A stretch of DNA of 64,000 nt from Epibacterium ulvae (GTDB lineage: Bacteria; Pseudomonadota; Alphaproteobacteria; Rhodobacterales; Rhodobacteraceae). A program made the position numbers and the translations under genes. The stretch lies in assembly GCF_018678075.1 (NCBI RefSeq), contig NZ_JAHHIR010000035.1:62001-126000 (forward strand), in the 5' to 3' direction. Below the pieces are notes generated by a model. The model searched no databases, had not been told where the DNA came from, and worked only from the letters and a program-made list of their open reading frames with translations. This document shows, piece after piece, positions 3,424 to 64,000 of the stretch. How positions within the stretch are numbered: the stretch's first letter is position 1; every line of letters starts with the position of its first letter.

Positions 3424-3541
3424 GCGATGCGCCCGGACAATCACCGGCTTTGGGCGTCATCGCCGCCCAAGGCATCAAAGGCCATGAAACAGCGGAAAAC
3501 TGTTCTGTTGCAGTGGCTTGCGATCTAACATCTGGGAAAAA

Positions 3542-3616
3542 TGGTAGCCCGTAGGGGAATCGAACCCCTCTTTCCAGGTTGAAAACCTGGCGTCCTAACC
3601 GATAGACGAACGGGCC
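3542..3616 (-). tRNA. tRNA-Glu (TTC)
   Basis: The minus strand folds into a full cloverleaf: acceptor GGCCCGT pairing with ACGGGCT, anticodon stem CCAGG/CCTGG with loop TTTTCAA (anticodon TTC, Glu), T-arm GGGGTTCGATTCCCC, discriminator A and an encoded CCA end. Length is 75 nt including CCA. It lies between the aminotransferase and recJ. Confidence 0.97.
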
Positions 3617-3710
3617 ATTCTTGGCGTGAGCGGGTATTTAGTTCCTAGTGCCGAAACCCGCAAGTGGAAAAATACGATTTTGTAAAATTTCTTATCCACA
3701 TGCGAAGGGC

Positions 3711-5450
3711 TTATGCAGGGGCCGCATCTTCCAGGCGCAGCTGCGGTGCCTGACGCCCGCCCCAGGTGTTGATTTCCAGCCGTCCGGCGCAGTGAAAACG
3801 GGCACCACCGTGGTCCAGCATCCGTTGGCCCAGCGGCGTGTCAAAGGCTCCGAAACAAATCGCATCCAGCTTTGCGCCCATGCCATCGGACAGGCTCAGT
3901 TTCAGATGGCTGTCGCCGACACGTTTGGCAAATTTGATCTCCACGTCCGGAAACGCATAGCGCGGGGCAGGGGCGCCAGCACCAAAAGGGCCGGCCTGTT
4001 CGATCTGTTCAATCAGATCCACCCGGGCGGCACCGGGCATCAAGATACCATCCACTTTCAGATCCTGTGGCCCCAGCGCGCCTGCACCCTGTTTATCCAA
4101 CAGCTCGGCCAGCCGTGCCATGGCAGGCTCCAACTGATAACGCGCAACGCTCAGACCTGCGGCCATTTTGTGTCCACCGCCTTTGATCAACAGCCCCTCG
4201 GCGGCAACTTTCTGGATCGAAGCCCCCAGATCAATGCCCGAGACAGAGCGCCCCGAGCCTTTACCCTCATCACCGTCCAAACCAATCACCACCGCAGGTC
4301 GTCCGGTGGCTTCTTTAAGACGGGAGGCGACGATGCCCACCACGCCCGGGTGCCAGCCTTCTCCAGCGGCCCAGACCAGGGGCGCGTCCAGCCCACGTTC
4401 CTCGGCCTGTTCCAACGCGGCTGCGCGCACAGCGCTTTCGATATCACGACGTTCGGTATTCAACTGGTCCAGACGCTCGGCCATTGCGGCGGCCTCATGT
4501 GGGTTGTCCGTGGCCAAAAGACGCGCGCCCAGATCTGCTTTGCCGATGCGCCCGCCGGCATTGACCCGTGGCCCCAGCAAGAACCCAAGGTGATAGGTCG
4601 ACGGCGCCGCATCCATCCGGCTGACATCGGCCAGCGCCACCAGCCCGGGGCGTTTGCGCGCGCCCATGACTTTCAATCCCTGCCGCACCAAGGCGCGGTT
4701 TGCGCCAATCAGTGGCGCCACATCTGCAACCGTCGCCAGGGCCACCAGATCCAGAAGGCTCATCAAATCGGGGCCTTTCAGCCCGGCCGCGCGCATTTGG
4801 CGACCGGTTTCCACCAGCATCAAAAACACCACGCCCGCCGCACAGAAATAGCCGAGATCACCGCTTTCATCCTGTCGGTTCGGATTCACCACGGCCACGC
4901 AATCGGGCAGGGTTTCACTGCCCAGGTGGTGGTCCAGAACAATCACATCCGCACCTTTGGCGGCGGCGATGGGCTCATGGCTCAGCGTGCCGCAATCGAC
5001 GCAGATGATCAGATCATGGGCCGCGGCCAGCTCTTGCATGGCGGGCACATTGGGGCCGTAGCCTTCGTCGATGCGATCGGGAATATAAAGCGTCGCCTGC
5101 AGGCCCATATCGCGCAGCCACACCAACAAAAGCGCCGCCGACGCGCCGCCATCAACGTCATAGTCAGCAAAGACCGCAATCCGTTCGCGCCGCTGCACCG
5201 CCTGCAAAAACCGTGCGGCCGCAACCTGCATATCTTTCATCTCAAGCGGGTCGGGCAGCAGCTCTTTCAGCTTAGGCTCCAAAAAACCGGTGGCCTCCAT
5301 TGCAGGCACACCGCGTCTGGCGAGCACCTGACAGACCGCAGCAGGCAACGCGCTTTGCTGGGTCATCATTTCGGCTGCACGTTGCACATCCACCCCAGGT
5401 CCAACCCAACTGCGCCCGGTCAGGGATGTCTCAACGCCCAGAAAGCTCAT
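3711..5450 (-). CDS. recJ: Single-stranded-DNA-specific exonuclease RecJ
   Basis: Cytoplasmic 5'-3' exonuclease on single-stranded DNA used in recombination and repair. The 579-residue protein has the DHH phosphoesterase motifs: FADYDVDGGASAA at about 94-106 (metal-binding Asp residues), DCGTLSHEP at 152-160 and VLDHH at 171-175. The DHHA1 signature GGHKMAAG is followed by the C-terminal OB-like domain. ATG at 5450 follows AAAGGT. The gene is downstream of glpX and hom on the same strand, an order common in Rhodobacterales. A 607-codon open frame on the opposite strand is an artefact of codon bias. Confidence 0.96.
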   Translation of the reverse strand: MSFLGVETSLTGRSWVGPGVDVQRAAEMMTQQSALPAAVCQVLARRGVPAMEATGFLEPKLKELLPDPLEMKDMQVAAARFLQAVQRRERIAVFADYDVDGGASAALLLVWLRDMGLQATLYIPDRIDEGYGPNVPAMQELAAAHDLIICVDCGTLSHEPIAAAKGADVIVLDHHLGSETLPDCVAVVNPNRQDESGDLGYFCAAGVVFLMLVETGRQMRAAGLKGPDLMSLLDLVALATVADVAPLIGANRALVRQGLKVMGARKRPGLVALADVSRMDAAPSTYHLGFLLGPRVNAGGRIGKADLGARLLATDNPHEAAAMAERLDQLNTERRDIESAVRAAALEQAEERGLDAPLVWAAGEGWHPGVVGIVASRLKEATGRPAVVIGLDGDEGKGSGRSVSGIDLGASIQKVAAEGLLIKGGGHKMAAGLSVARYQLEPAMARLAELLDKQGAGALGPQDLKVDGILMPGAARVDLIEQIEQAGPFGAGAPAPRYAFPDVEIKFAKRVGDSHLKLSLSDGMGAKLDAICFGAFDTPLGQRMLDHGGARFHCAGRLEINTWGGRQAPQLRLEDAAPA

Positions 5451-50253: not shown

Positions 50254-51420
50254 GTGTCCATGGATAGACTGCACCGCGCCAAGGCGCTTCTGGCCGATCT
50301 CATCGCCTTTCCGTCGGTCTCAGCCGACAGCAATCTCGACCTGATCGCCTATGTCGCACATGTGCTGGAAGAAGCCGGCGCGCGGGTCGATATCTCACCG
50401 TCTCCTTGTGGGACCAAAGCCAACCTTTTTGCCACCATTGGCCCCGATGTGGCGGGCGGTATCTTGCTGTCCGGCCACAGCGATGTGGTGCCGGTCACCG
50501 ATCAGGACTGGACCAGCGATCCGTTTCAAATGGTCGAACGCGACGGCAAGCTTTTTGGGCGCGGGGCCTGCGATATGAAAGGGTTCCTGGCCGCGATGCT
50601 GACCATGGCTCCGGTTCTTGGCGCCCAAGTCCGCGACCGCCCACTGCATTTCGCCATCACCTATGACGAAGAGGTCGGTTGCCTGGGCGCGCAACATCTG
50701 GTGGAACGGCTGCAGAAACAAGGTGTTAAACCCTCCGTTGCGATCATTGGTGAACCGACCATGATGCGCATCATCGAAGGCCACAAAGGTTGCCACGAAT
50801 ACACCACGCGTTTTGTCGGTCTGCCGGGGCACAGTTCGCAACCGGACAAGGGTGTGAACGCGGTGGAATATGCGGCGCGTTTCATGAACCATCTGCTGCA
50901 GATCAAAGACCAGCTGCGCGGCATGGCCCCCGCCGACAGCCGCTTTGACCCGCCTTGGCCAACGCTCAACATCGGCGAAATCTCCGGCGGGGTGGCCCAT
51001 AATGTGATCGCCCCCACGGCCACGGTCGCCTGGGAAATGCGCCCGGTTCATCCGACAGATGTGCAGTTCGTGTGGGAGAGTATTGATCGCTTTTTCACCC
51101 AAGACCTGCTGCCCGCGATGCAGGCGATCTCCCCCGACGCGGTGATCGAGACCGAGGTGATCGGAGAGGCCGCCGCCCTGGTGCCCACAGCCGACAACGC
51201 CGCCCGCGAACTGGTCGCCAGTCTGACGGGTCAGAACACGGCGAGCCTTGTGTCCTTTGGCACCGAAGCCGGGATTTTTCAGGCGCTGGGCACCCATGCG
51301 GTTGTCTGTGGTCCGGGTTCGATCGAGCAGGCGCATAAGGCCGATGAGTTCCTTGCGGTGGATCAGCTGGCTGACTGTCTTGAGATGCTCGATGGGCTTG
51401 GAGCGCGGCTGAATGGGTGA
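50254..51420 (+). CDS. ArgE-like N-acyl-amino-acid deacetylase (M20 family)
   Basis: A 388-residue zinc-dependent M20 deacylase resembling acetylornithine deacetylase. Metal and catalytic motifs: ILLSGHSDVVPVTDQDWTSD (His, Asp), RGACDMKGFLAAML (Asp bridge), TYDEEVGCLGAQ (Glu-Glu), EPTMMRIIEGHKGC (Glu/His of substrate clamp) and the C-terminal zinc His in IEQAHKADEF. Start is GTG 50254 or ATG 50260, both within AGGAAAGGC reach. In this position it would remove the acetyl group from the product of the M24 hydrolase. The overlap with gntR (8 bp) shows an operon. Not necessarily arginine metabolism. Confidence 0.86.
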   Translation: MSMDRLHRAKALLADLIAFPSVSADSNLDLIAYVAHVLEEAGARVDISPSPCGTKANLFATIGPDVAGGILLSGHSDVVPVTDQDWTSDPFQMVERDGKLFGRGACDMKGFLAAMLTMAPVLGAQVRDRPLHFAITYDEEVGCLGAQHLVERLQKQGVKPSVAIIGEPTMMRIIEGHKGCHEYTTRFVGLPGHSSQPDKGVNAVEYAARFMNHLLQIKDQLRGMAPADSRFDPPWPTLNIGEISGGVAHNVIAPTATVAWEMRPVHPTDVQFVWESIDRFFTQDLLPAMQAISPDAVIETEVIGEAAALVPTADNAARELVASLTGQNTASLVSFGTEAGIFQALGTHAVVCGPGSIEQAHKADEFLAVDQLADCLEMLDGLGARLNG

Positions 51421-52093
51421 CACGACACCCGATCCTTCTGCGACAGTACGCGACCGCCACGAAGCCCTGCACGCTGAGATCCGCCGCCGGATTTGCCTGT
51501 TGGATTACGCCCCCGGTCAGCGCCTGTCCGAGGTCGCCTTGGCCGAGGAATTTGGCACCTCCCGCACGCCTATGCGCCGGGTCCTTGCGCGGCTTGAGGA
51601 TGAGGGGCTGGTGCAGTCGTTGCACGGGGTTGGCACCTTGGTCACCGACGCTGATATCGCGGCGCTGGAGCAGGAATACCACCTGCGGCTTGAACTGACC
51701 GAGCTGACCGGACGGCTGGACCCGGTGATGCCGGATGCGGTGTTTCTGGCGACGTTGGATCAGTTGATCGCACGCGGCGCGCAGATGGTGCGCGATGGCA
51801 CCCCGCGCGATTTCACCGCCTTTGATATGGAGGTGTTTCAGGTGCTGCTACAGCTCACTGGAAACCTGCCGTTGCGCGATACGCTGGAGCGGCTTTACTA
51901 TAAAACCAAACGCATCTGGCTGACCGCCGCGATTGAGGCGCAGCTGGATTTACAGGCCGAATTTCGTATCTTTCATCACGAGTTGGAGGCGATCCGAATT
52001 GCGCTGCACTCAGGCGATCTGGACGCGGTGGCACATATTCAGCGGGCGCATATCTCCATGAGTTTTCAACGTCTGCGCAAGCAACGGGATTGA
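51413..52093 (+). CDS. GntR-family transcriptional regulator (FCD subfamily)
   Basis: A 226-residue regulator: winged helix-turn-helix (about 15-75, RLSEVALAEEFGTSRTPMRR, then VLARLEDEGLVQSLHGVG) and an all-helical FCD effector domain (about 90-220). The last codons encode AHISMSFQRLRKQRD, the part repeated again at 61.85 kb. It is in the same operon as the ArgE-like gene. The two TTGTGTACA sites at 48932 and 49018 are probable binding places. The 3' end is the left edge of the repeat-bounded segment. Confidence 0.88.
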   Translation: MGDTTPDPSATVRDRHEALHAEIRRRICLLDYAPGQRLSEVALAEEFGTSRTPMRRVLARLEDEGLVQSLHGVGTLVTDADIAALEQEYHLRLELTELTGRLDPVMPDAVFLATLDQLIARGAQMVRDGTPRDFTAFDMEVFQVLLQLTGNLPLRDTLERLYYKTKRIWLTAAIEAQLDLQAEFRIFHHELEAIRIALHSGDLDAVAHIQRAHISMSFQRLRKQRD

Positions 52094-52168
52094 GGCAACT
52101 TCAGCGCCTCCGAGGGTTAACAAATGCTTGCAATGTTTCGCACGCGAAACAATTGACCGTTTGGACAA
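52045..52168 (+). repeat. Direct repeat copy A (3' end of gntR and downstream)
   Basis: 124 bp starting inside the end of gntR, matching copy B at 61849-61971 in the same orientation. The last 45 bases (52124-52168) are identical; the coding part differs by point changes and one indel. The identical block holds the palindrome GTTTCG CACG CGAAAC (52135-52150). The two copies bound a 9.8-kb segment. Confidence 0.9.
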
Positions 52169-52206
52169 GGTGATTTCACGGCAACGCTGGCGTCGGCAAC
52201 CCGCAA

Positions 52207-53600
52207 TCAGGGCCAGGCCTTGGCTATTGCACAGGCCTCGGCAAAGCGTGCGGGATCTGGGACAAAGCCCGTCTCGGGGCGATAGGTCTTTTGCGACGCT
52301 GCAAATGGCAGTTCAACACCGCAAAAACGTGCGGCCATTTGGGCGGCGCTAAAGGCCGTGATGTCCGGCATCTGGGCCACCGCGATCTCACGCTCCAGCA
52401 CATTGGCGAGCAGCTGACAGAACCAGGGGTTCTGGGTCATGCCGCCGTCCACCAGCAATGCTCCGGTCTATGGCAGGACCTGTTCCATCGCGCCGTAAAG
52501 GTCGGATGCGCGATAGGCGATCCCTTCCAACAGGGCCTGCATCATCTCGTGTTGGGTGGTGGCCAATGTCAGGCCCAGCCAGGTGCCTTTGGCCCCGTTG
52601 TCCCAATGGGGGCAGGCCAGACCGGCCAGCGCCGGCACAAAGGCGAGACCGCGCGACAGGGCGTGGCCGTCAAATCCAGTCAGCGCGCTGTAGTCTGAGA
52701 ACAACCCCAAGCCGCGCGCCCAATCCACTGCCGACGCAGCCGTGTGAATGCCGCCGTCCAGGGCATACTGCACCTCTTGCCCGGCCTCACGCCAAGTAAC
52801 CGTTGGCAGCACCCCATGTGCCAGAGCTGGGCATTGCGGCCCGACAAACGGCTGGGCAAAGGCCCCGGTGCCAAAGGTGAATTTGGTCTGCCCGGCTTGG
52901 GTGACCCCATGGCCATACAGGGCCGCTTGCTGGTCGACCCAAGGCGGTCACCAACGGCAGGTCATCGACCGCTCCCAAATCGCCGCTGCAATCGCCGATC
53001 TTGGGTAAACAGTTGATCGGCACGCCGAACAGCGCACGTAGGTCGGCGTCCCATTGACCGGTTTGCAGGTTCATCAGGGACGTGCGGGAGGCGGTGGCGA
53101 CATCCGTTTCAAACCGTCCCGTCAGCCGGTCGCGCAAAAACACATCCGTGGTGCCAAGGCGCAGGTGTCCGGCCGTGGCAATGGCGGCAGCCTGCGGGAT
53201 ATTTTCCATAATCCAGCCAAGCTTTGAGGCCGAAAAATAAGGGGTCACTGGCAGGCGCGCGATCGTCGCGACATGATTGGTTGCGGTCTTGGCGATCTGG
53301 GGGCAGCGGTCGGTGGTGCGCGCATCCTGCCAGACGATGATGGGGCTGATGGGGGTTCCGGTTCGCGCGTCCCAAGCCAGACAGCTTTCTCCCTGTTTTG
53401 ACAGGGCAAAGGCCTGCGCGCCCCGCCGCAATCGCATCCGCCACATGGGATAGGATTTCGTTTGGGACATGTTCCACCCAGCCGGGATGCGGGTGGATCT
53501 GCGCATGGGCAGCGGCGTGGAGTTTTTGCATCTGACCTGAGCGCCCAAACAAAAAGGCCGAGGTCGAGGTGGTGCTTTGACCGATGGCTAGAAAACTCAT
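52207..53600 (-). pseudogene. FGGY-family carbohydrate kinase, disrupted
   Basis: Reconstructed product: about 464 residues, FGGY kinase (glycerol kinase-like): opening SFLAIGQSTTSTSAFLFG, AFALSKQGESCLAWDARTGT, FEALLEGIAYR-like tail (MMQALLEGIAYRASDLYGAM) and VDGGMTQNPWFCQLLANVL. Three lesions: a frameshift in the run CCCC near 53421 (minus GGGG), a second near 52938-52940 (an extra C), and an in-frame amber codon at 52468-52470 between QVLP and TGALLVDGG. Its ATG overlapped the preceding gene's stop (ATGA), so this was the third gene of one operon. Surely non-functional in the reference sequence unless there are sequencing errors. Confidence 0.85.
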
Positions 53601-54724
53601 GGCTCCTCGCGCAGCGCGATGGTTGTGGCGTCTTTTGGCAAGGGGATTTCGATCCGCCGTGCCGGGCGGCTGTTCAGTTTTGCGCGCATCCCGCCATAGG
53701 TGAGCGTGGCTTTGACGGGGTGGTTCAGGCCGAGTTGCAGCTAGCCAAAGGCAGCATTAGATGGGGTCTCGCTGGTCTGCGCGATGCGCTGGGGCGTGTG
53801 CCAGGCGATGGCGTTGTCCACAGCCCGCACGGTCTGGGTCGGTGCCGGGTCAGGCAGCTGGCCTTGGGTGGCGGCAAAATAGACCGGGTCAGAGCAGCGG
53901 CCAAACTGGTCAATCTCGGGCCCGCGGGTGCTGGGGTCGACCACCAGGTGACTGGCCCGAAGCAGCGCGTTTTTCGGCCGAAATGCGCCGGTGATCACCA
54001 CGGCGTCGCAGGCGATCCGGCGCTCTGTCTCGCCCGATTTCAGGGTGACGCCGGTGACCCAGTCGCGGCCATGGATCGCGGTGATCTGGGTGTTCAGATG
54101 CACCGGGATACCCAGGACACGCGGCGGCCAGCGCGCCGCGCCATAGGTAGTGAGGTTGGCGTTCGGCTCGACCATCGCAACAGGGCGGGCACCGCTGTGA
54201 CGACAAGTCATCAGCGCGGAAAAGGAGACCAGCTCGCTGCCCAGAATGATCGGGCGTTTGAAGGGACTTTTCTGTGCCAGATAGACCAGCCCCTGCAGCG
54301 CGCCGGTGTTCATGACGCCGCCAGGTTTGGTGCCGCCTATAAACCGCGCCGCCCGGCTGGTTTCCCGCACGCCGGTTGCGATCAGCACCCGGTTTGCCTG
54401 CACCCGGTGCAGCCCGGTTGGGGTCGACAGATCCACGCTGCCCTGCGGATGGAGCGCGACAACGGTTGTCCGGGTATGGATGTGCGCACCGTGGTTCTGG
54501 GCGCAGGCAATCAGGCGGCGCGCGTAGTTTTGACCACCCATGATGCGACGAAATTCGCGCCAGCCATACGGCGAGTGGCCGCAATGGCGCGGGATGCCGC
54601 CGGCCGCGTTTTCGCGGTCGACCACATGCACCTCAAGCCCCTGCTCGGCAAGCACGGAGGCCGCCGACAGACCGGCGGGGCCTGCACAAATGATCAGCAC
54701 GTCAAGGGTTTGTGGCGGGCTCAT
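53597..54724 (-). pseudogene. FAD-dependent oxidoreductase (GlpB-like / NAD(P)-FAD type), disrupted
   Basis: Reconstructed 375 residues: N-terminal FAD-binding fold, GGIPRHCGHSPYGWREFRRI, ATGVRETSRAARFIGGTKPG and ITGAFRPKNALLRASHL. Two defects are seen. The dinucleotide-binding loop, normally GAGPAG, reads CAGPAG (TGT for the first Gly). A TAG at 53741-53743 cuts the frame, after which it continues for 47 codons to the original TGA at 53597, overlapping the kinase start. Start ATG at 54724 overlaps the previous stop (ATGA). The family supports anaerobic-type glycerol-3-phosphate or polyol-phosphate oxidation together with its two neighbours. Confidence 0.8.
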
Positions 54725-55528
54725 GTCTTGGCCTCTTCCGGGCAGGTGAACCCAGTCAGTTTTTCGATTTCGCCAGAGCAATAAAACCCCTGGCAACGCC
54801 CCATTGTGGCCCGTGTTCGCCGTTTGAGCCCGGCGAGGTTTGTCGCGCCCAAGGGGCCCTCAAGCGCCATCTCGATCTCGCGGCGGGTGACTTTTTCACA
54901 GTGACAGACGATGCCATCATTGCCAGGCAGGGCCCAGTCACGTGTCCCTTTCTCTGCCATCATAGCCATCGTCGGCCATGTTACACCGGCGGGCGGGACG
55001 AATTGGCCTGAGAAAGCCTTGGCCACCCGTTCTGCGATCCCCAAAGCTGCGCTGAGCCCGGTGGAGCGGATGCCGCCGATGGTCACCATGTTTTCGCTGT
55101 GATGGCGGATCTGATATTCCTTGTCGTTGCTGGCGGGGCGCAGCCCGGCATGGGTGGTTGTTACTTCCTCATCCGCGAGGGCGGGCCTGATCCATCAGCT
55201 CACCAAGCTTTGCCTCCTGCGCGTCGTCCCAGGCCAGAACCAAGGCACCGCAGCGGTCGATCGGCAGGTTCAGCTGGGCGTGGATCTGTTCGTATTGGCG
55301 ATAACCTTCCTGGACGCAGGCCAGTTCGACGGACCCTTGGGGCGCGTCAAAGCCCGAGTGCAAAATGGCCGAGTTCGCCTTGGACGCGCCATCCAACACA
55401 TCCACCGCCTTTTCCAAAACGATGACGCGCGCGCCCTCCAGAGTGAATTTGCGCGCGATGGCGCATCCCACCAAGCCCGCACCGATGACGGCGATATCAT
55501 ATGCGTCATGTGGTTTTGGAACGGCCAT
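54721..55528 (-). pseudogene. Glycerol-3-phosphate dehydrogenase-like FAD protein with [2Fe-2S] BFD domain, internal deletion
   Basis: The first 118 residues (start ATG 55528 after GAGGAGA) are an intact FAD-binding opening: YDIAVIGAGLVGCAIARKF and DGASKANSAILHSGFDAP. Then the frame ends at 55169. The C-terminal part, beginning near 55184 with THAGLRPASND and SENMVTIGGIRSTG, continues to a BFD-like [2Fe-2S] domain (VCHCEKVTRREIEM ... CQGFYCSGEIEKL). Some 200 codons between the two parts are missing and the frame is shifted. First gene of the decayed operon; the DeoR gene is divergent from it. Confidence 0.82.
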
Positions 55529-55759
55529 ATGGTCTCCTCGTAGGACGCCGGTTCCGGGAGGCACCTACCGCATGGGTTCGTTTCGCGCAAATAATGCCCG
55601 AATGGTCAATGAAAATCCAAATCTGCAGACTGATCGGGCGAAAATGCGTTGACTATTTGGGCAGCGCTACGCCCTCATCAAATCGATCTGGCTCGCAAAA
55701 ACGATGTTTTTAGCGAGTCGCTCAGCACGTTTTAACTACTGCGAAAGCCAAACCGACCA

Positions 55760-56542
55760 ATGGCACTCAAGCCTAAAGACCGACAGAACGAAATTGCTAA
55801 CCTCATCGCCCAAAAGGGCGAAATGAGCGTCGAAACCCTAGCCGAGACATATGATGTTTCACTGGAAACCCTGCGACGGGATCTGGCGCGCCTGTCCGAA
55901 CAGGGACGTATTCGCAAGGTGCATGGCGGTGCCAAACCGGCGCAGCTGCACAGTGAGCCGAGCTTTGCGGAACGGATGACCGAGGATCTGGAAGAGAAAC
56001 AGGCCATCGGATACAAATTGCGCGCCGAGCTGCGCGATGGCGACACGATTTTTATGGACACCGGATCGGCCACGCTGATCGCCTGTGACGCGCTTTTGGG
56101 CATGAACGGGCTGACGGTGATCACAAACTCGGTTCTGGTGGCGCAAAAGCTTGGGGCTGAGGCGGGGATCACCGTCTATTTGCTAGGCGGGGTCTATGGC
56201 TCTGGCAATCAGCAAACCCTGGGGGTGATGGTGCGTCGGCAAATCGAAAGCTTTTATGCGGACCACGCGGTGCTGACCCTGTCTGGCCTCGATGTCAAAG
56301 CGGGCATTACCTATGCCGACCCGCAAGAGGCAGAGGTGGCCGAGGCCATGGTGCGCCATTGCGAACAGGTCACCTATCTGGTGACATCGTCGAAATTCGG
56401 ACGCCGCGCCGCCTATCGCACCGGTGGGCTGGCTGAAATTGACAAAGTGCTGACGATGGATCCGCCGCCCGAACCGCTGGCGTCCGAGCTGGCGCTGGCC
56501 GGTGTCCAGATCTCCACCGAACAAGAGGATGACAATGCCTAA
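55760..56542 (+). CDS. DeoR/GlpR-family transcriptional regulator
   Basis: A 260-residue repressor: N-terminal winged helix-turn-helix (about 6-60, RQNEIANLIAQKGEMSVETL, then AETYDVSLETLRRDLARLSE) and a DeoR C-terminal sugar-phosphate sensor (about 78-235; GDTIFMDTGSATLIACDALL, LTVITNSVLVAQKL, SSKFGRRAAY). It is intact. Divergent from the dead polyol operon and therefore its most likely former regulator; it also runs into the TRAP genes (8-bp overlap with dctQ), so it may now control only those. Confidence 0.9.
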   Translation: MALKPKDRQNEIANLIAQKGEMSVETLAETYDVSLETLRRDLARLSEQGRIRKVHGGAKPAQLHSEPSFAERMTEDLEEKQAIGYKLRAELRDGDTIFMDTGSATLIACDALLGMNGLTVITNSVLVAQKLGAEAGITVYLLGGVYGSGNQQTLGVMVRRQIESFYADHAVLTLSGLDVKAGITYADPQEAEVAEAMVRHCEQVTYLVTSSKFGRRAAYRTGGLAEIDKVLTMDPPPEPLASELALAGVQISTEQEDDNA

Positions 56543-57080
56543 GTCCCTGCGAACCTATGTGCGGTGGGTCGACTGCGTGTCGGATTACACCGGTATTTTT
56601 GCCATGTACCTGATCTTTGCAATGGTCGGCGTGCTGATCCTGGATGCGGTGACATCCGGGCTGCAGATCTATCTGCATTGGTGTATCGAACTCGCCCAGT
56701 TCATCCTTGCGGCCTATTACTTTATGGGCGGCGCCAAGACGATGAAGGACGGCGACCATGTGCGCATGGATCTGCTGTATGACCGCCTGTCGCCCAGAGG
56801 CAAGACGATCACCGATCTGGTGACGATTTCCTGCCTGCTGTTTTATCTGGTGATCATGTTCATCGGCGGCATGTCGTCCCTGGGATATGCGATTGAGACG
56901 GGCGAGCGGCGGTTTTCCATGTGGAACCCATCGTTGATCCCGATCAAGGCGCTGATGGTGATCTGTCTGGGGCTGATGATCCTGCAGACCGTCTCTGAAA
57001 TCATAAAACACATTGCTGACCTGTGCGGCGAACCGATGACCCCGGCAAATACGCTCGCCGCTGAGGAGACGACTTCATGA
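56535..57080 (+). CDS. TRAP transporter small permease (DctQ)
   Basis: Four-helix inner-membrane subunit (181 residues) of a DctP-type TRAP transporter: hydrophobic segments at about 22-42, 58-76, 95-118 and 138-160. The conserved HWCIELAQFILAAYYFMGGA core is present, with DHVRMDLLYDRLSPRGK between helices 2 and 3. The ATG at 56535 lies in the end of deoR. Overlaps dctM by ATGA. Confidence 0.9.
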   Translation: MPKSLRTYVRWVDCVSDYTGIFAMYLIFAMVGVLILDAVTSGLQIYLHWCIELAQFILAAYYFMGGAKTMKDGDHVRMDLLYDRLSPRGKTITDLVTISCLLFYLVIMFIGGMSSLGYAIETGERRFSMWNPSLIPIKALMVICLGLMILQTVSEIIKHIADLCGEPMTPANTLAAEETTS

Positions 57081-58408
57081 GCTACGAACTTATTGCTCTG
57101 ACCATGTTTGCCACGATGATGGTGCTGTTGCTGACCGGCCAGCGTGTCTTTGCGGCGATCGGCTTTGTGGCCTCGATCATGGTGCTGCTGCTTTATGGCA
57201 ATGGCGGTGTCGAGATCCCGTTTTCGGCGACGTTCAAGCTGTTCAACTGGATCCCGATGCTGACGCTGCCCCTGTTTATCTACATGGGCTACATCCTGTC
57301 CGAGGCGGGGATTGCCGAAGATCTGTATAAGATGTTGCACGTCTGGTTTGGCCGGGTTGGCGGCGGGCTGGCCATTGGGACGATTTTTTTGATGGTGATC
57401 ATTTCCGCGATGAACGGCCTGTCGGTTGCTGGCATGGCCATTGGCGCGACCATTGCGCTGCCCGAGATGTTGCGGCGGGGCTACGACAAAGTTCTGATCA
57501 CCGGGGTTGTGCAAGGGGGATCCTCTTTGGGGATCCTGGTGCCGCCCTCGGTGGTGATGGTGCTCTTTGCGATGATCGCCCGCCAACCTGTGTCGCAGCT
57601 GTGGCTGGCGGGATTGATCCCCGGCCTGATGATGGCGGCGATGTTTGTGATTTATGTAGTCATCCGCACGCGGATAAACCCTGCGCTGGCCCCGACCGTG
57701 TCCGACGACGAGCTGAATATGCCGTTGTCGGACAAGCTGAAACTGCTGTCGGCCGGCATTATCCCATTTGCGATTTTCTTTACCATGACGGGTCTGTTCA
57801 TCATGGGCATCACCTCGCTGGTGGAAAGCGCGGCTGTGGGCGCGACCTCGGCCACATTGGCGGCGGCGATCAAGGGGCGGCTGTCCTTGAAGATGGTGCA
57901 CGAGACCGCGCGCAAGACGCTTGGCGTGTCCTGCATGTTCCTGTGGTTGATCCTGGCGGCGCTGGCCTTTGGCGCGGTGTTTGACGGGATCGGTGCGGTG
58001 CGCGCGATTGAGAACCTGTTTATCAACAACTGGGAGCTGACGCCCTGGCAGGTGATCATCATGATGCAGATCAGTTTCGTGGTGATGGGCATGTTCCTGG
58101 ACGACACCGCGATGCTGGTGATTGTTGCGCCGCTTTATGTGCCGCTGGTCAAGACGCTGGACCTGGGCTTTGACAATCAGATGATCTGGTTTGGCGTGCT
58201 TTATACGATGACCTGTCAGATCGCCTATATCACGCCGCCCTTCGGCTATAACCTGTTCCTCATGCGGGCGATGGCGCCCAAAGAGATCACGCTTCCCGAC
58301 ATTTACCGTTCGATCTGGCCCTTCGTTGCGATGATGACGTTCACGATCGCGCTGGTAATGATTTTCCCACAAATCGCGCTTTGGCTGCCTGAGCTTGTGC
58401 GGAATTGA
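57077..58408 (+). CDS. TRAP transporter large permease (DctM)
   Basis: The 12-helix sodium-coupled permease of the TRAP transporter (443 residues). Visible are LLTGQRVFAAIGFVASIMVLLLYG, SEAGIAEDLYKMLHVWFGRV, GLSVAGMAIGATIALPEMLR, VQGGSSLGILVPPSVVMVLF (the conserved G-[SA]-x-G-I-L-[IV]-P-P-S motif) and AYITPPFGYNLFLMRAMAP near the end. ATGA overlap with dctQ. Works with the binding protein that follows. Confidence 0.95.
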   Translation: MSYELIALTMFATMMVLLLTGQRVFAAIGFVASIMVLLLYGNGGVEIPFSATFKLFNWIPMLTLPLFIYMGYILSEAGIAEDLYKMLHVWFGRVGGGLAIGTIFLMVIISAMNGLSVAGMAIGATIALPEMLRRGYDKVLITGVVQGGSSLGILVPPSVVMVLFAMIARQPVSQLWLAGLIPGLMMAAMFVIYVVIRTRINPALAPTVSDDELNMPLSDKLKLLSAGIIPFAIFFTMTGLFIMGITSLVESAAVGATSATLAAAIKGRLSLKMVHETARKTLGVSCMFLWLILAALAFGAVFDGIGAVRAIENLFINNWELTPWQVIIMMQISFVVMGMFLDDTAMLVIVAPLYVPLVKTLDLGFDNQMIWFGVLYTMTCQIAYITPPFGYNLFLMRAMAPKEITLPDIYRSIWPFVAMMTFTIALVMIFPQIALWLPELVRN

Positions 58409-58451
58409 TCACCTCCTCCTCCAAATCCACGTCCGACAGGAAGGTCATAAA

Positions 58452-59525
58452 ATGACTGAGAAAACAAAACAAAGCCCGTCAGAAAAAATCCTGACATCCC
58501 GCCGTAAGTTCCTCACCACCACTTCCGTTGGTGCGGCGGCTACCCTTGCTGCGCCTGCGGCCATCGCCCAACAGGGCCCGATCAAATGGCGTCTGCAGAC
58601 CTATTCCGGCGCGCCGCTGGGGGCGCATGTGATCAAGCCGCAGATCGAGGCCTTCAACACCGCCGCCAATGGCGACATGGAGATCGAGCTTTATTACGCA
58701 GACCAGCTGGTCCCAACCGGCGAATTGTTCCGCGCGCTGCAAAACGGCACCCTGGATGCGGTACAATCGGATGAGGCAACCATGGCCTCTCCGGTGGATA
58801 TCTCTGTCTTTGGCGGCTACTTCCCCTTTGCCACCCGCTACTCGCTCGATGTGCCGGCGCTGTTCAACTACTACGGTCTGAACGAGATCTGGAAAGAAGC
58901 CTATGACGAGGTCGACAATGTGACCTGGCTGTCTGCGGGCGCTTGGGATCCGTTGCATATCTTCACCAAGGATCCGATCAACTCGCTGGCGGATATGCGC
59001 GGCAAACGCGTCTTTGGCGTGCCAACGGCCGGCCGCTTCCTGTCGCAATACGGTCTGATCCCTGTGACCGTGCCATGGGATGACGTGGAAGTTGCACTGC
59101 AAACCGGTGAGCTGGACGGCGTGGCCTGGTGTGGCTTTACCGAAGCATACGAGGTCGGCTGGGCGGACATCTGTAACTACGCGCTGACCAACTCGGTCAC
59201 CGGTGCGTGGTTCGGGTCGTATTTTGCCAATACCGAAAGCTGGAACAAAGTGCCCGCGCATTTGCAGGAACTGTTCAAGATCACCATCGACCAGTCGCAC
59301 TACTATCGCGCCACATGGTATTGGGGTGGCGAAGCCAAGCTGCGCACCGAAGGTGAAAAGCTTGAGCTGACCTCGATCCCTGATGAGGAATGGTCAACAG
59401 TTGTGCAGGATTCCTCGAAATTCTGGGATGAGATCGCCGCAAAAGGTGGCCGTCCGCAGAAAGTTGTCGACGCGTTCAAAACCTATGCGGCAACAATGGA
59501 AAAAGCGGGTTATCCGTACCGTTAA
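58452..59525 (+). CDS. TRAP transporter substrate-binding protein (DctP family)
   Basis: Periplasmic binding protein, 357 residues, exported by Tat: the twin-arginine motif SRRKFLTT at about 16-23 followed by a hydrophobic stretch to AIAQ. The DctP fold shows WRLQTYSGAPLGAHVIKP, ALQNGTLDAVQSDEAT and ALQTGELDGVAWCGFTEAY (the conserved switch region with an Arg/Trp pair further on). AGGAAGG precedes the ATG. The ligand cannot be read from sequence; the next gene suggests ethanolamine or a related small amine. Confidence 0.92.
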   Translation: MTEKTKQSPSEKILTSRRKFLTTTSVGAAATLAAPAAIAQQGPIKWRLQTYSGAPLGAHVIKPQIEAFNTAANGDMEIELYYADQLVPTGELFRALQNGTLDAVQSDEATMASPVDISVFGGYFPFATRYSLDVPALFNYYGLNEIWKEAYDEVDNVTWLSAGAWDPLHIFTKDPINSLADMRGKRVFGVPTAGRFLSQYGLIPVTVPWDDVEVALQTGELDGVAWCGFTEAYEVGWADICNYALTNSVTGAWFGSYFANTESWNKVPAHLQELFKITIDQSHYYRATWYWGGEAKLRTEGEKLELTSIPDEEWSTVVQDSSKFWDEIAAKGGRPQKVVDAFKTYAATMEKAGYPYR

Positions 59526-59536
59526 ACGAACCCTTC

Positions 59537-59564
59537 GGGCGCATCTGGCATCACCGATGCGCCC
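59537..59564 (+). terminator. Hairpin between TRAP binding protein and eutB
   Basis: GGGCGCATC and GATGCGCCC (9-bp perfect arms) around a 10-base loop, 12 bases after the binding-protein stop. It is not followed by a T run, so it is likely an attenuator or mRNA-processing structure between the transporter and the enzyme rather than a full terminator. Confidence 0.55.
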
Positions 59565-59628
59565 GTCTCCCTCATACGCGATGGCACCGGCCGGCTGCGT
59601 GTGACACAGAATTTGATTTAGGCACGTC

Positions 59629-61011
59629 ATGGCGCATTACCGATGTAACTTGGGCGGAGAGCTGTTCCGTTTTGGCAGTCTGGGCGAGGTGATGGCCAAG
59701 GCCACGCCGGGACGGTCGGGCGACGCGCTGGCGGGGTTGATCGCAGGCTCGGATGTGGAGCGGGTGGCGGCACAGATGGTTCTGGCCGATCTACCACTCA
59801 AGGATTTCCTGTCTGAGGCTCTGATCCCTTACGAGACGGATGAGGTCACCCGGCTGATCATGGACAGCCATGACACTGCGGCCTTTGCGCCGGTGTCCCA
59901 TATGACCGTCGGCCAATTTCGCGATTGGCTGTTGTCGGATCAGGCCAGCGCACCAGTGTTGAAATCCCTGGCGCCCGGATTGACGCCCGAGATGGTGGCG
60001 GCGGTGTCCAAGCTGATGCGCAACCGGGATCTGATTGCGGTGCCGCGCAAGATCGACGTGGTGACCAGCTTTCGCTCCACCCTGGGCCTTGCGGGGCGGA
60101 TCGGGTCACGGCTGCAGCCCAACCACCCGGCGGATGATCTAAAAGGCATCGTGGCCTCCACCCTGGATGGCCTGTCCTATGCGGTGGGGGATGCGGTGAT
60201 TGGCATCAACCCGGCCACCGACAATATCCCCACGGCCATGTCGCTGCTGTCGATGCTGGACGAGCTGATCGCCCGCTATGAAATCCCGACCCAAAGCTGC
60301 GTGTTGACCCATGTCACCAACTCGATCGAAATCATGAACCGCGGCGCGCCGCTGGATCTGGTGTTTCAATCGGTGGCTGGCACCCAGGCGGCCAATGATG
60401 GTTTTGGGGTGACGCTTGCGATGTTGAAAGAGGCGCATGAAGCCGCGCTGTCTCTGAACCGGGGCACGGTGGGCAACAATGTCATGTATTTTGAAACCGG
60501 CCAGGGCAGCGCCTTGTCCGCTGAGGCCCACCACGGGGTGGATCAGCAAACGCTTGAGGTGCGCGCCTATGCGGTCTGTCGCGCCTTTGATCCGTTGATC
60601 GTCAACACGGTCGTGGGCTTTATCGGGCCAGAGTATCTTTATGACGGCAAGGAGATCACCCGCGCCGGGCTAGAAGACCATTTCTGCGGCAAACTCCTCG
60701 GCCTGCCGATGGGCTGTGATGTTTGTTACACCAACCACGCCGAGGCGGATCAAAACGATATGGATGTGCTGATGACCCTCTTGGCGGACGCGCGCGCCCA
60801 TTTCCTGATCGCGGTGCCGGGGGCGGATGACATCATGCTGAATTATCAAAGCCTCTCGTTCCACGACATGGCCTATTTGCGCAACGCCTTCGGCCTAAAA
60901 GCCGCGCCTGAGTTTGAGAGCTGGCTGGAGGGCATGGGGCTGATCAATGACCACGGCCATCTGATCGACAGCACACACGGCACGCAGCGCCTGCTGGAGG
61001 CCGCATCATGA
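59629..61011 (+). CDS. eutB: Ethanolamine ammonia-lyase large subunit
   Basis: Adenosylcobalamin-dependent enzyme converting ethanolamine to acetaldehyde and ammonia. The 460-residue protein carries the active-site sequence of the family: GDAVIGINPATDNIPTAMSL, PTQSCVLTHVTNSIEIMNRG, PLDLVFQSVAGTQAANDGFG and MYFETGQGSALSAEAHHGVD. The final part GCDVCYTNHAEADQNDMDVL includes the conserved cobalamin-region residues. The eutB ATG follows a weak AGG. Overlaps eutC by four bases. No eutA reactivase or microcompartment genes are in the window. Confidence 0.96.
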   Translation: MAHYRCNLGGELFRFGSLGEVMAKATPGRSGDALAGLIAGSDVERVAAQMVLADLPLKDFLSEALIPYETDEVTRLIMDSHDTAAFAPVSHMTVGQFRDWLLSDQASAPVLKSLAPGLTPEMVAAVSKLMRNRDLIAVPRKIDVVTSFRSTLGLAGRIGSRLQPNHPADDLKGIVASTLDGLSYAVGDAVIGINPATDNIPTAMSLLSMLDELIARYEIPTQSCVLTHVTNSIEIMNRGAPLDLVFQSVAGTQAANDGFGVTLAMLKEAHEAALSLNRGTVGNNVMYFETGQGSALSAEAHHGVDQQTLEVRAYAVCRAFDPLIVNTVVGFIGPEYLYDGKEITRAGLEDHFCGKLLGLPMGCDVCYTNHAEADQNDMDVLMTLLADARAHFLIAVPGADDIMLNYQSLSFHDMAYLRNAFGLKAAPEFESWLEGMGLINDHGHLIDSTHGTQRLLEAAS

Positions 61012-61790
61012 GCGCGCCCACTGATACTCGTGACCCCTGGGCAAAACTGCGCGCTGCAACGCCTGCGCGCATTGGGCTGGGACGCGCTGGAACCGGGCTG
61101 CCGACCTCCGACAATCTCGACTTTCAATTTGCCCATGCGCGGGCGCGTGATGCGGTGCATTCGGCGCTGGACGTGAGCCGCCTTGAGCAGGATTTGGCAG
61201 CGTTTGAGGTGATCCAAGTGACCTCTGCCGCGCCGGACCGGGCGACCTATCTGCGCCGCCCGGATCTGGGGCGACGTTTGGGCGCGAATGAGGGCGCAAA
61301 TCTGCCCGCCCAGCCTTGTGATGTGATGTTTGTCATTGCCGATGGCCTGTCCTCGGCTGCGGTGCAAACCCATGCAGCGGCGGTCATTGAAGCGGCTTCG
61401 GCAAAGCTCACAGGGTTTGCGATTGGCCCGGTTGTGATCGCCACCCAGGCGCGGGTTGCCATCGGGGATGAGATCGGCCAGGCCATCGGCGCGCGGTTGA
61501 CCGTGCTGTTGGTGGGCGAACGTCCCGGCCTGACGGTGGCGGACAGTCTGGGGGCCTATCTGACCTATGGGCCAGCGCCCGGCGTCAAAGACAGTGCCCG
61601 CAATTGCCTGTCCAACATCCACGCCAAAGGCGGCATGAGCTATGATCTGGCGGCCGAGAAAATCGCCTGGCTCACCCGCGCGGCCTTGCGGATGGAACTG
61701 ACCGGCACCGGGTTGAAAGAAGAGGCCGACCCCACAGAGATCCCGGATGCATCCGACGCCACCCAGGCGCTGAACACGCCGCAGACGTAG
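61008..61790 (+). CDS. eutC: Ethanolamine ammonia-lyase small subunit
   Basis: Cobalamin-binding small subunit (260 residues) of ethanolamine ammonia-lyase. Family landmarks: PARIGLGRAGTGLPTSDNLD, HARARDAVHSALD, DVMFVIADGLSSAAVQTHAA and the C-terminal VKDSARNCLSNIHAKGGMSY (conserved nucleotide-loop region). ATGA overlap with eutB. It is the last gene before repeat copy B. Together eutBC release nitrogen from ethanolamine; the acetaldehyde route is not encoded here. Confidence 0.95.
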   Translation: MSAPTDTRDPWAKLRAATPARIGLGRAGTGLPTSDNLDFQFAHARARDAVHSALDVSRLEQDLAAFEVIQVTSAAPDRATYLRRPDLGRRLGANEGANLPAQPCDVMFVIADGLSSAAVQTHAAAVIEAASAKLTGFAIGPVVIATQARVAIGDEIGQAIGARLTVLLVGERPGLTVADSLGAYLTYGPAPGVKDSARNCLSNIHAKGGMSYDLAAEKIAWLTRAALRMELTGTGLKEEADPTEIPDASDATQALNTPQT

Positions 61791-62658
61791 GTCGGGTTTA
61801 CATCCGTTGTTCCTAGGGTGTTGGTTCCACCTCAAAGGACGCGCAAAAGGCGCATATGTCCATGAGTTTTCAGCGTCTGCGCAAGCAGCGTGATCGAGGC
61901 AACTTCAACTTTCCCGGGGTTAACAGATGCTTGCAATGTTTCGCACGCGAAACAATTGACCGTTTGGACAATCAAAGAGTTTTGCAACGATTTGGGAGCG
62001 GGGCACTGAGTTTAAAAGGTTTGCCCTTCACAGCCCGTTGCATTGGCTAAAAGTTTAATGAGATTTTTGGCGGTCAACAGGCGGCGCGCCACAGCAACCT
62101 ACGCAGGCGATTAATTTGTGTAACGCCCAATGTAATCCACAAAGTAGACCTAGATACTGCATGCGGCGAAGGTCTCAAAAGAGCCCATGTCGACCAATGC
62201 TGCGGGATGCACAAATGTCAGCAAAGCGCAGTAAGCGGGCACGAATTGAACTCTAACAGCATCAAAGTTCGCTGGACTGACTTGGCGAAGGATTCGGCGG
62301 AGGACAGGACCAAGCCCACTAAGACTGATCTTGCGCCTTAATGCCATGCCAACAGCAGCAAAGAACCGACAGTGCGCGATCTTTGGCTCCCGAATGGTGC
62401 TGATCCATTTGTAGTGGCCTTAGAGATTGTGTTTTGCATTCAATGAAAATTTCTTTGGCACGCACCATACACTTCCCTCAGTGCGAACAACCGTGACAAA
62501 AAAGAGCGGCACAAATAATGGCGGGCCGAGTAACGTAGTGCTTCTCACAAAAACAAAATGCGTTGCCAATCGGGCAACGCATCCCTGCTTGAAGTATTCT
62601 TCCAGACGTATCTCGTGTCGCATAGCATCGGATGCAAATTGAAATGAAAGGTTCAGCG
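61791..62658. other. Gene-poor stretch with repeat copy B and a gntR 3' fragment
   Basis: Between eutC and the RidA gene lie 868 bases. The first part holds repeat copy B (61849-61971) with a remnant of a GntR gene end. The following 690 bases have lower GC and no convincing gene; frames at 62150-62347 and 62427-62741 show no family, no ribosome site and no codon pattern. I see no transposase, integrase or tRNA there. Confidence 0.6.
61849..61971 (+). repeat. Direct repeat copy B
   Basis: 123 bp, matching copy A at 52045-52168. It encodes a remnant of a GntR C-terminus (MSMSFQRLRKQRDRGNF) without the stop codon seen in copy A. Last 45 bases (61927-61971) are identical to copy A, including the palindrome GTTTCG CACG CGAAAC at 61938-61953. 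Confidence 0.9.
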
Positions 62659-63153
62659 ATGTCCGCGTCTCTCAGCATGATCGAACAAAAACTAGAATCC
62701 ATGGGATTGAAGTTGCCGTCACCTCCTCGTCCAATCGCCAACTACCTACCTGCTGTGGAAGTTGGAAATATCCTCTACGTTTCAGGCACGCTCGGCACGA
62801 TCCGTGATGAAAATGATCAGGATATCATACCGATCAAGGGTAAGTTGGGCGGCGAATTAACCATCGAGCAGGGCTACGAGTCTGCAAAACTTATGGCCCT
62901 AAACCACCTTGCTTTGATGAAAAAGGCCATCGGTGACCTGGACCGAATTGAGCGCATCGTAAAAATGGTTGGATATGTGAATTCTGCGCCTGGGTTTACC
63001 GAAGCGCACCTGGTTCTAAACGGGGCGTCCGACCTCTACGAAGCCCTATTGGGCACAGAACGCGGCAAACACGCGCGTGCGGCTCTGTTTCAAAACGAAC
63101 TTGGCTTGGATGCACCGGTCGAAGCGGAAATGACCGTTCAGTTGAAATCCTAA
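62659..63153 (+). CDS. RidA/YjgF-family protein
   Basis: A 164-residue RidA-superfamily protein of the larger form that has an N-terminal extension: SMIEQKLESMGLKLPSPPRP, the core motif VEVGNILYVSGTLGTIRDEN and the trailing TEAHLVLNGASDLYEALLG. The conserved Arg found in imine-deaminating RidA is not visible, so it may not be a deaminase; a related subgroup acts in amino-acid or aromatic catabolism. ATG at 62659 after AAAGG; an ATG at 62644 is possible. Convergent with the LysR gene. Confidence 0.88.
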   Translation: MSASLSMIEQKLESMGLKLPSPPRPIANYLPAVEVGNILYVSGTLGTIRDENDQDIIPIKGKLGGELTIEQGYESAKLMALNHLALMKKAIGDLDRIERIVKMVGYVNSAPGFTEAHLVLNGASDLYEALLGTERGKHARAALFQNELGLDAPVEAEMTVQLKS

Positions 63154-63154
63154 A

Positions 63155-64000
63155 TCAATCTTCGTTGATCCACCAACGTTTGCGGGCGGCCTTCAAGGCT
63201 GCCTCATCTTTTTCTTCCCACTCCGAAAAGCGATCTTCCGCGAATTTGGCGAATAGTTCAGCCGCCGGAGAGAGAGCCCTCTGCCGTCGGCGCGCAATCG
63301 AAAGGTGCCGGTGATCAAAGGCTGAACATTGTAGATTTACGGGAACCAGAACATCCGCGTTGATTTCTGAATAGACCGCCTGCGCTGGTACAAAGAATAC
63401 CGCATTGTTCAAAAGCGCGTAGCTTCGCAGAAACTGAAGTTTGTTACTGATTGTCTTAGGTGCAACCTGTGCTTTTTGCTTTTTGGCGATGCGTTTGATC
63501 AATTGGCTAATCCCAAAACTGCTGTCGGGAAGCACGTGATCATAGCCCATCAACTCAGGCAATTCGATCGGCCGACCATCTGCAAGCGTATGTTTCGAAG
63601 GAACAAAAGCTTTCAAAGGCTGATGGTAATGCGCGAAGGCTTCGAGCGCGTGGTGGTTTGAAAAATCGTACACAAAGCCAATGTCAGCCTGATATCGATC
63701 CAATGCATCCACGGTTTCATCGCGGCTGGCGACCACAATTTCAAAGGTCACGTCCGGGTAGGCTTCATTGAATTCTGTTAAAATTCGGGGCAGGAAATTT
63801 TCGGTGATGCCTTCAACCGTGGTAATGCGGATTTCACCTCGGTGCAGCGCGCGCAGATCGTCGATATCTGACTGTACAAGATGCAATTGTGCTTCAATTT
63901 TCAAACCATGCGCCCAAAGCCGTTCTCCGGCTTCGGTTAAGCGAACGCCGTCTGACCTGCGGTCTAGCAACACGCAGTCCAACTCATGCTCTAGAGCAGA
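63155..64000 (-). CDS. LysR-family transcriptional regulator (5' part missing)
   Basis: The effector domain and the end of the DNA-binding region of a LysR regulator; the first about 45 residues lie beyond the window edge. SALEHELDCVLLDRRSDGVR is the C-terminal end of the helix-turn-helix, GEIRITTVEGITENFLPRI and the segment ADIGFVYDFSNHHALEAFA belong to the effector domain. Convergent with the RidA gene, with a one-base gap, so a functional link is likely. Effector unknown. Confidence 0.9.
   Translation of the reverse strand, partial: SALEHELDCVLLDRRSDGVRLTEAGERLWAHGLKIEAQLHLVQSDIDDLRALHRGEIRITTVEGITENFLPRILTEFNEAYPDVTFEIVVASRDETVDALDRYQADIGFVYDFSNHHALEAFAHYHQPLKAFVPSKHTLADGRPIELPELMGYDHVLPDSSFGISQLIKRIAKKQKAQVAPKTISNKLQFLRSYALLNNAVFFVPAQAVYSEINADVLVPVNLQCSAFDHRHLSIARRRQRALSPAAELFAKFAEDRFSEWEEKDEAALKAARKRWWINED

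Follow-up and report, generated by a model that had tools for sequence, protein, structure and literature searches.

The DNA considered here, a stretch of 64,000 nucleotides from Epibacterium ulvae (contig NZ_JAHHIR010000035.1, positions 62,001 to 126,000, hereafter the window), carries towards its right end a gntR gene whose 3' end, together with the adjoining non-coding block, is repeated downstream on the same strand (Table 1). In a repeat search over 51.0-63.5 kb this direct repeat consists of two adjoining ungapped families, 52045-52103/61849-61907 at 92% identity, which corresponds to the gntR-derived part and has a spacing of 9804 bp, and 52109-52168/61912-61971 at 95%, which corresponds to the last 60 bases and has a spacing of 9803 bp. 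The two spacings indicate a 1-base indel between the families. The remaining direct repeats of the interval are much weaker (e.g. 37 nt at 70%). A sequence-only reading of the window had described two direct repeats with identical final 45 bases and a diverged coding part, and both repeat search and alignment bear this out. The centre of the identical block is a perfect-armed 18-bp palindrome, TGTTTCGCACGCGAAACA, which is the subject of this work. The interpretation developed below, considered rather probable as a whole, is that the blocks are chromosomal copies of a plasmid parS, that the right repeat came with a neighbouring block of low guanine-plus-cytosine (GC) content, and that the 9.8 kb between the repeats are older than the split from the congener G002.

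The sequence-only reading had proposed a search for the block elsewhere in the genome, and it is indeed found there. The block recurs in seven places of the genome of the window (G000; 4.09 Mb, 107 contigs), two of them being one palindrome read on both strands. When TGTTTCGCNNGCGAAACA was searched with up to two mismatches, eight places were returned, all exact and none with one or two mismatches, versus one for the reversed control. The 17 congeners have 0 to 20 places with at most one mismatch, the reversed controls giving none in 16 of them and one in the other. One of the eight sites of G000 is located on another contig (L017), 128 bp after the parB gene of a repA-parA-parB module whose repA and parA match the Pfam families PF10134 (1.5e-100) and PF13614 (4.5e-30), respectively.

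The palindrome is tightly linked to this type of parB. Of the 30 parB loci with the highest scores in 296 genomes of the family, 27 have a core with at most one mismatch within ~0.4 kb of the matched stretch, and the core is exact in 22. The three others are G111 (site 1.5 kb off, outside the flank), G122 (contig end) and G179. In several congeners a tandem array of the core with a period of 41 bp directly follows the 3' end of parB. When the contigs were scanned for the site, at least 119 stretches were obtained, of which 25 contain a ParB recognized by its motif, in all cases within 2 kb. Named plasmids were sampled as 22 stretches of 425 records (20 hand-picked from a 60-row spread list, plus P. 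inhibens DSM 17395 and Phaeobacter porticola). Those with a ParB 46-60% identical have the exact core in 12 of 13 cases, in 10 at no more than 140 bp from parB; the distance is 1525 bp in P. inhibens pPGA1_65 and P. porticola pP97_d, and in R. denitrificans pTB2 AGTTTCGCATGCGAAACT stands 3 bp after parB. In contrast, none of the nine plasmids with a ParB 36-43% identical (referred to as the sister class) has the exact core. Six of these nine carry GGTTTCGC(N)GCGAAACC; in A. pacifica the sequence is TGTTTCGC(T)GCGAAACA. In 1.97 Mb of loci (overlaps included) the motif GGTTTCGC(N)GCGAAACC occurs in only eight stretches, all around a sister-class parB. Since the core tracks the ParB class and most of the sister class has another palindrome, specificity appears to differ between ParB classes. 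TGTTTCGCNNGCGAAACA is likely to be the parS (centromere) of one class of Roseobacter plasmids, with a RepA of the PF10134 type in the copy examined. For the RepA class, PF10134 was checked only beside the copy of G000 itself, the annotation of one P. porticola record reads 'replication initiator protein A', and names such as 'RepA-I' are in use for such plasmid classes. With this palindrome as an 18-base marker, Roseobacter plasmids could be sorted into partition classes. As a separate observation, a likely parS of the sister class, GGTTTCGC(N)GCGAAACC, is present in up to five copies around parAB (L238, i.e. G000 contig C42, L365, L366 and others).

The plasmid ParB has no match in Pfam, a single-sequence search of the PDB gave no ParB, and the NCBIfam models for ParB/RepB match below their cut-offs in all cases. 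A profile of 21 sequences from both classes found the sulfiredoxin 6ky4 first (1.5e-9), then Noc (7ol9, 2.7e-9; 7ng0, 7.8e-9; 7nfu, 2e-8), ParB 4umk (8.9e-8) and Spo0J 1vz0 (1.9e-5). GxxRR and ENxxR are the nucleotide-binding motifs of the CTPase family formed by ParB, RepB and Noc, and G-x-R-R and E-E-N-E-x-R are invariant in the 21 sequences. The fold model is of low confidence (mean predicted local distance difference test score of 60), its best fold matches being Noc, ParB-DNA and SopB at E 0.0098 or worse. On profile, motifs and the weak NCBIfam matches, the plasmid protein is assigned to the ParB/Noc CTPase family. The canonical chromosomal parS is TGTTTCACGTGAAACA. Its outer half-sites TGTTTC/GAAACA are similar to those of the 18-bp site, although it is two bases shorter, co-exists with the 18-bp site and lies near the chromosomal parB. 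Two copies are present in 17 of the 18 genus genomes; in five genomes both the canonical site and the chromosomal parB were located, and there they are no more than 4 kb apart. That the palindrome is a variant of the chromosomal parS was rejected, the chromosomal parB having its own separate canonical sites. Two adjacent ParB-like matches were also observed outside the window on the same contig (C20 of G000, 261025 and 261912).

Copies of the site are dispersed over the chromosomes. In five near-complete assemblies of the Roseobacter group, the largest contig carries 14 copies in Dinoroseobacter shibae (G072), 10 in P. porticola (G111), 10 in Pacificitalea manganoxidans (G175), four in G311 and three in Ruegeria sp. 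TM1040 (G008). Two of these sequences, the chromosomes of P. porticola and P. manganoxidans, begin with dnaA, and the 10 sites of each do not cluster by distance from the origin (Kolmogorov-Smirnov test versus uniform, p 0.59 and 0.37, on small numbers). Gene contexts were called with a simple open reading frame (ORF) picker based on GC at third codon positions for 59 fetched sites, three of which are on the 425-kb second contig of G311. Eight sites fall inside ORF calls and 51 are intergenic, between convergent (20), tandem (26) or divergent genes (5). The excess of convergent over divergent placement (p 0.004) argues against promoter operators.

Both position and core are conserved. Among the loci common to several genera are those next to genes for a histidine phosphatase-like protein (G000, G002, G012, G111), an ABC-F-like protein (G249, G111) and a DUF1289-like protein (Tritonibacter scottomollicae G007, G111, G249), all three labelled by eye. 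Over 56 site pairs with synteny on both sides, 892 of 896 core bases are identical, the four mismatches being a single G017 site seen in four pairs, and 5012 of 8597 aligned flanking bases (58%); core identity is inflated here, most pairs having been collected by way of an exact core. Bias is smallest between G000 and G002, where six of the seven G000 sites not beside parB have an exact counterpart. The five such pairs aligned with synteny on both sides have flanks 60-87% identical. The suggestion, made from the sequence alone, that the non-coding block is under selection is thus supported, the palindrome being kept exactly in its own genome and in syntenic relatives. On the D. shibae chromosome (L265-L278) the 14 copies stand in a common flanking context, part of which also surrounds the parS on plasmid pDSHI02 (L235); the flanks look copied or jointly constrained.

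All 16 defining bases are common to the chromosomal sites and the plasmid site, which makes the plasmid ParB the simplest candidate binder. Within the genus, two near-complete genomes with a sister-class match only (G016 and G017) have 4/10 exact sites, versus 96/117 in ten ParB-bearing congeners (p 0.006). This test takes all sites with at most one mismatch, plasmid ones included, among the matches listed (G009 entering as 14/15 exact on the same basis), and omits G003, G005, G013, G006 (0 sites), G011 (ParB present, 0/2 exact) and G014 (67% complete, 0 sites). For a narrower, self-chosen subset the figures are 26/26 (G000, G002, G008, G012) versus 4/10 (p 1.1e-4). In G006 (L227) and G011 (L065) the plasmid palindrome itself is altered, and neither genome has exact copies elsewhere. 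Of the 296 genomes, 64 have the site together with ParB (at E 1e-30 or better), nine the site only, 60 ParB only and 163 neither (Fisher p 1.4e-20).

Several observations weigh against the plasmid ParB as binder. The latter count scored only six candidates per genome, and nine of the 73 site-bearing genomes are without a clear homologue. No match at 1e-5 was obtained in G249, G139, G141 and G326 (3-5 sites each) or in G112 and G132 (one each), and matches are weak in G288 (seven sites, 30%), G255 (one, 32%) and G311 (seven, 34%), the parB of G311 being located among different palindromes. Another protein may bind the sites. Moreover, the plasmid site of G000 has the centre AT and flanks unlike those of the chromosomal copies (centre AC/GT), and flanks share further motifs within a genus: in Tritonibacter, TM1040 and Phaeobacter, for instance, the core lies within TAGGTCAG...CTGACC, and in D. 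shibae within another motif. Such genus-specific motifs hint at a second factor, which is considered likely.

The nine genomes and the flanking motifs would also be expected if the palindrome were the operator of, or a structural site for, some DNA-binding protein encoded on the chromosome, and the plasmid par locus had borrowed that site. This is regarded as unlikely: the palindrome follows the ParB class and is absent beside the sister class, most of which has another palindrome, the sites avoid divergent gene pairs (5 versus 20 convergent), and exact sites are scarcer in G016 and G017, without the plasmid ParB, than in the ten ParB-bearing congeners. A repetitive extragenic element, of the kind of repetitive extragenic palindromes or miniature inverted-repeat transposable elements, could be conserved simply through spreading, and the shared flanks of copies within one genome, e.g. 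in D. shibae, are what it would leave. Nevertheless, positional orthologues across genera, an invariant core amid flanks that differ between genera and the linkage to parB render such an element improbable. It is very improbable indeed that the site is a bidirectional transcription terminator between converging genes, despite the convergent bias and one locus (L068) predicted to fold as a very strong hairpin. No terminator-like site was found in 51900-52400 and no Rfam match in 51000-63000, the two window copies fold on the + strand barely better than shuffles (z -1.69 and -0.07), and an exact identity of 16 bases would be unneeded. A terminator or structured RNA is thus not supported by terminator search, folding or Rfam. 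An operator of the DeoR regulator encoded in the 9.8-kb segment was likewise rejected, as the polyol genes do not have the palindrome upstream of them and it is also present at unrelated loci.

The segment between the repeats is as the sequence-only reading had described it, with a split FGGY kinase, FAD oxidoreductase pieces, DeoR, TRAP and eutBC; in G000 the kinase is broken, whereas the DeoR and TRAP genes are open. An orthologue of the GntR protein at E 1e-30 or better is present in two of the 18 genus genomes, G000 itself and G002 (87% amino acid identity). In G002, gntR is followed by a single block, after which come the part of the FGGY kinase nearer to gntR, fragments of DctQ and DctP, and an open eutBC; stretches matching window positions 53429-56462 and 56972-58793 (oxidoreductases, DeoR, DctM) are missing. 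As G002 has the same segment after gntR and a single site, the segment would already have been there in the common ancestor and have decayed differently since. It thus predates the split from G002, on this two-genome comparison, and is probably an old resident rather than a mobile element.

The sequence-only reading had regarded the two repeats as the boundaries of a 9.8-kb segment, which recombination between them would excise. Excision in this manner is possible, but the unit itself is not supported by G002, which has one repeat and a shortened segment. Relatives with a single repeat and no segment, which that reading had proposed to look for, were not seen in the comparison of the two gntR-bearing genomes, since G002 combines a single repeat with the segment. 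That the segment is mobile or excisable and duplicated a target of 124 bp at the 3' end of gntR is quite improbable: direct repeats do flank both ends, but G002 shares the segment beside one repeat only, and in a three-way alignment with G002 the right copy is homologous from a point inside gntR up to and including TTGACCGTTTGGACAA, where the composite site ends. The segment has a GC content of 60%, near the 58-59% of the surroundings, while that of the block to its right is 52%. Moreover, no integrase or transposase, as had been noted from the sequence alone, is found among the Pfam matches of the 15 window proteins scanned (10 + 5), which include proteins of the segment.

The right repeat appears instead to belong to what lies beyond it. 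Its gntR stop codon is gone (TGA to CGA at 61895-61897), which identifies it as a gntR 3' remnant. GC content is 52% over 61972-69428 and 49-51% per kb in 62000-63999, and the low-GC block runs past the window on the same contig to ~69428, with TRAP-like and amidase-like ORFs (labels by eye). The alignment with G002 reaches the end of eutC (window 61800) and picks up again at a MarR-like gene (window-scale 69429; label by eye). Between these two genes G000 has the gntR remnant with its block, ~660 bp without a clear gene, and the RidA, LysR-like, TRAP-like and amidase-like genes, whereas G002 has an ArsR-like gene (label by eye). The right repeat is thus the left edge of a block missing there in G002. 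The right repeat would then be the 3' end of a related gntR copy plus site, at the left edge of a 7.5-kb low-GC block, and would most likely have entered with it from a relative in which the block adjoined gntR and the site, rather than through an insertion of the 9.8 kb. It weighs against such co-arrival that the donor arrangement was not seen. Its main competitor is a local duplication of the gntR 3' end and site after the split from G002, independent of the low-GC block. It would explain why GAGGCAACTTCA, from the stop position onwards, is common to the left and right copies and why they have five differences in the last 49 coding bases, versus nine for each against G002 (counted by eye on the alignment). 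The right copy is nonetheless located where the low-GC block begins, which favours co-arrival, and local duplication is held to be somewhat unlikely.

Table 1. Features of the window around the repeats (window positions).
Feature	Position	Strand	Basis
gntR (GntR + FCD), 3' end duplicated	51413..52093	+	ORF; Pfam PF00392 1.7e-17, PF07729 1.7e-8; G002 orthologue 87% amino acid identity
Left repeat: gntR 3' end + non-coding block	52045..52168	+	Repeat search; three-way alignment
Left 18-bp palindrome TGTTTCGCACGCGAAACA, putative parS-type core	52134..52151		Palindrome search; exact positional orthologue in G002
Second motif TTGACCGTTTGGACAA, imperfect palindrome adjoining the core	52153..52168		Sequence comparison of sites
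FGGY carbohydrate kinase, broken	52207..53548	-	FGGY_N and FGGY_C on separate ORFs (Pfam)
FAD/NAD oxidoreductase pieces + BFD-like [2Fe-2S] domain	53741..55564	-	ORFs, Pfam
DeoR-family regulator	55760..56542	+	Pfam
TRAP transporter DctQ, DctM, DctP	56502..59525	+	Pfam; DctQ and DctP parts align in G002
eutB + eutC	59629..61790	+	Pfam; both open in G002
Right repeat: gntR 3' remnant (stop lost) + block; putative left edge of acquired block	61849..61971	+	Repeat search; alignment
Right 18-bp palindrome, putative parS-type core	61937..61954		Palindrome search
Start of low-GC block, absent at this place in G002	61972..64000		GC, alignment with G002
RidA-type protein in low-GC block	62632-63153	+	Pfam
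LysR-like gene in low-GC block	63155-63982	-	By eye

Although a mobile 9.8-kb segment is not supported, the repeats are of value in drawing attention to a likely plasmid centromere with conserved copies on the chromosome, which is interesting and testable. It is put forward, tentatively and as a plausible rather than a probable proposal, that a Roseobacter plasmid ParB has turned chromosome organiser: it would load on old, dispersed chromosomal parS sites that occupy the same loci in different genera, and plasmid and chromosome would have a common segregation or nucleoid system, in effect a plasmid-encoded Noc. Noc itself is chromosomally encoded. The plasmid ParB would load at the 18-bp palindrome, close as a clamp with cytidine triphosphate and spread. 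On the plasmid, loaded ParB would feed ParA-driven partition, and the chromosomal copies would offer a second platform. Loading there could tether the plasmid to the chromosome and so couple their segregation, or organise the nucleoid as Noc does; alternatively, the chromosomal sites could be competitors for ParB, comparable to SGI1 in its relation to IncC plasmids (PMC10954446). The location of sites behind genes would fit a spreading protein which must not silence promoters. The sequences show that the chromosomal sites match the plasmid site, that the latter is tightly linked to parB, and that the copies are dispersed and keep their position and core; binding in vivo and a benefit from it are inferred. 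A derivative of P. inhibens DSM 17395 without the 65-kb replicon exists as a live strain (PMC9025767); the role would thus not be essential, which weighs against the proposal. The same strain makes the question testable in Phaeobacter. A plasmid centromere scattered over host chromosomes and kept base for base amid drifting surroundings would point to a standing role of a plasmid protein in chromosome biology, or to a standing conflict, and a plasmid-encoded Noc, if true, could help explain the stable chromid behaviour of these replicons.

The literature on plasmid parS on chromosomes and on Rhodobacterales partition offers three points of comparison, namely RepABC palindromes, SGI1 and Noc (PMC5613091, PMC10954446, PMC4331003). 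The RepABC centromeres of Rhodobacterales (e.g. RepABC-1/-2) are likewise perfect palindromes beside parAB-type genes, serve as ParB anchors and differ by a few bases between compatibility groups, like the class-specific cores described here; those described are, however, 14 bp long and located in replication modules, whereas the present site is 18 bp long, belongs to another plasmid class and has copies scattered over the chromosome (PMC5613091). Noc of Bacillus is a ParB-family protein with binding sites (NBS) around the chromosome, and the plasmid ParB profile matches Noc structures, but Noc acts in division control and the candidate binder here is plasmid-encoded (PMC4331003). The parS mimics of SGI1 are parS-like copies outside the plasmid that use the ParB of the IncC plasmid, as is proposed here. 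SGI1 is nevertheless one mobile element with two copies, whereas the present sites are several, mostly chromosomal and intergenic, with some loci common across genera, and their binding by ParB is inferred (PMC10954446). Chromosomal parS sites are described as confined almost entirely to the vicinity of the origin, and additional copies can lower fitness (Caulobacter; PMC5815017). In titles, openings of abstracts and passages of open-licence literature (including PMC9426580, PMC9044938, PMC3910702), chromosomal copies of this site were not found described, and a full-text search of open-licence papers with four 14-base cores of the palindrome returned none; neither is proof of absence.

Three further loci are of interest. 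L312 (G311 contig C5) is another ParB locus, with repeated palindromes such as GAAACCTTATCCGCGGATAAGGTTTC, and would represent a third likely parS class. In L068 (G004 contig C78, ~1960) a long near-perfect inverted repeat surrounds the core, with a predicted hairpin of -62 kcal/mol. Outside Rhodobacterales, in a metagenome-assembled genome of Rhodocyclaceae (L152), the palindrome at 3034-3051 adjoins the 3' end of an ORF at 3052-4206 on the minus strand, which is ParB-like by eye.

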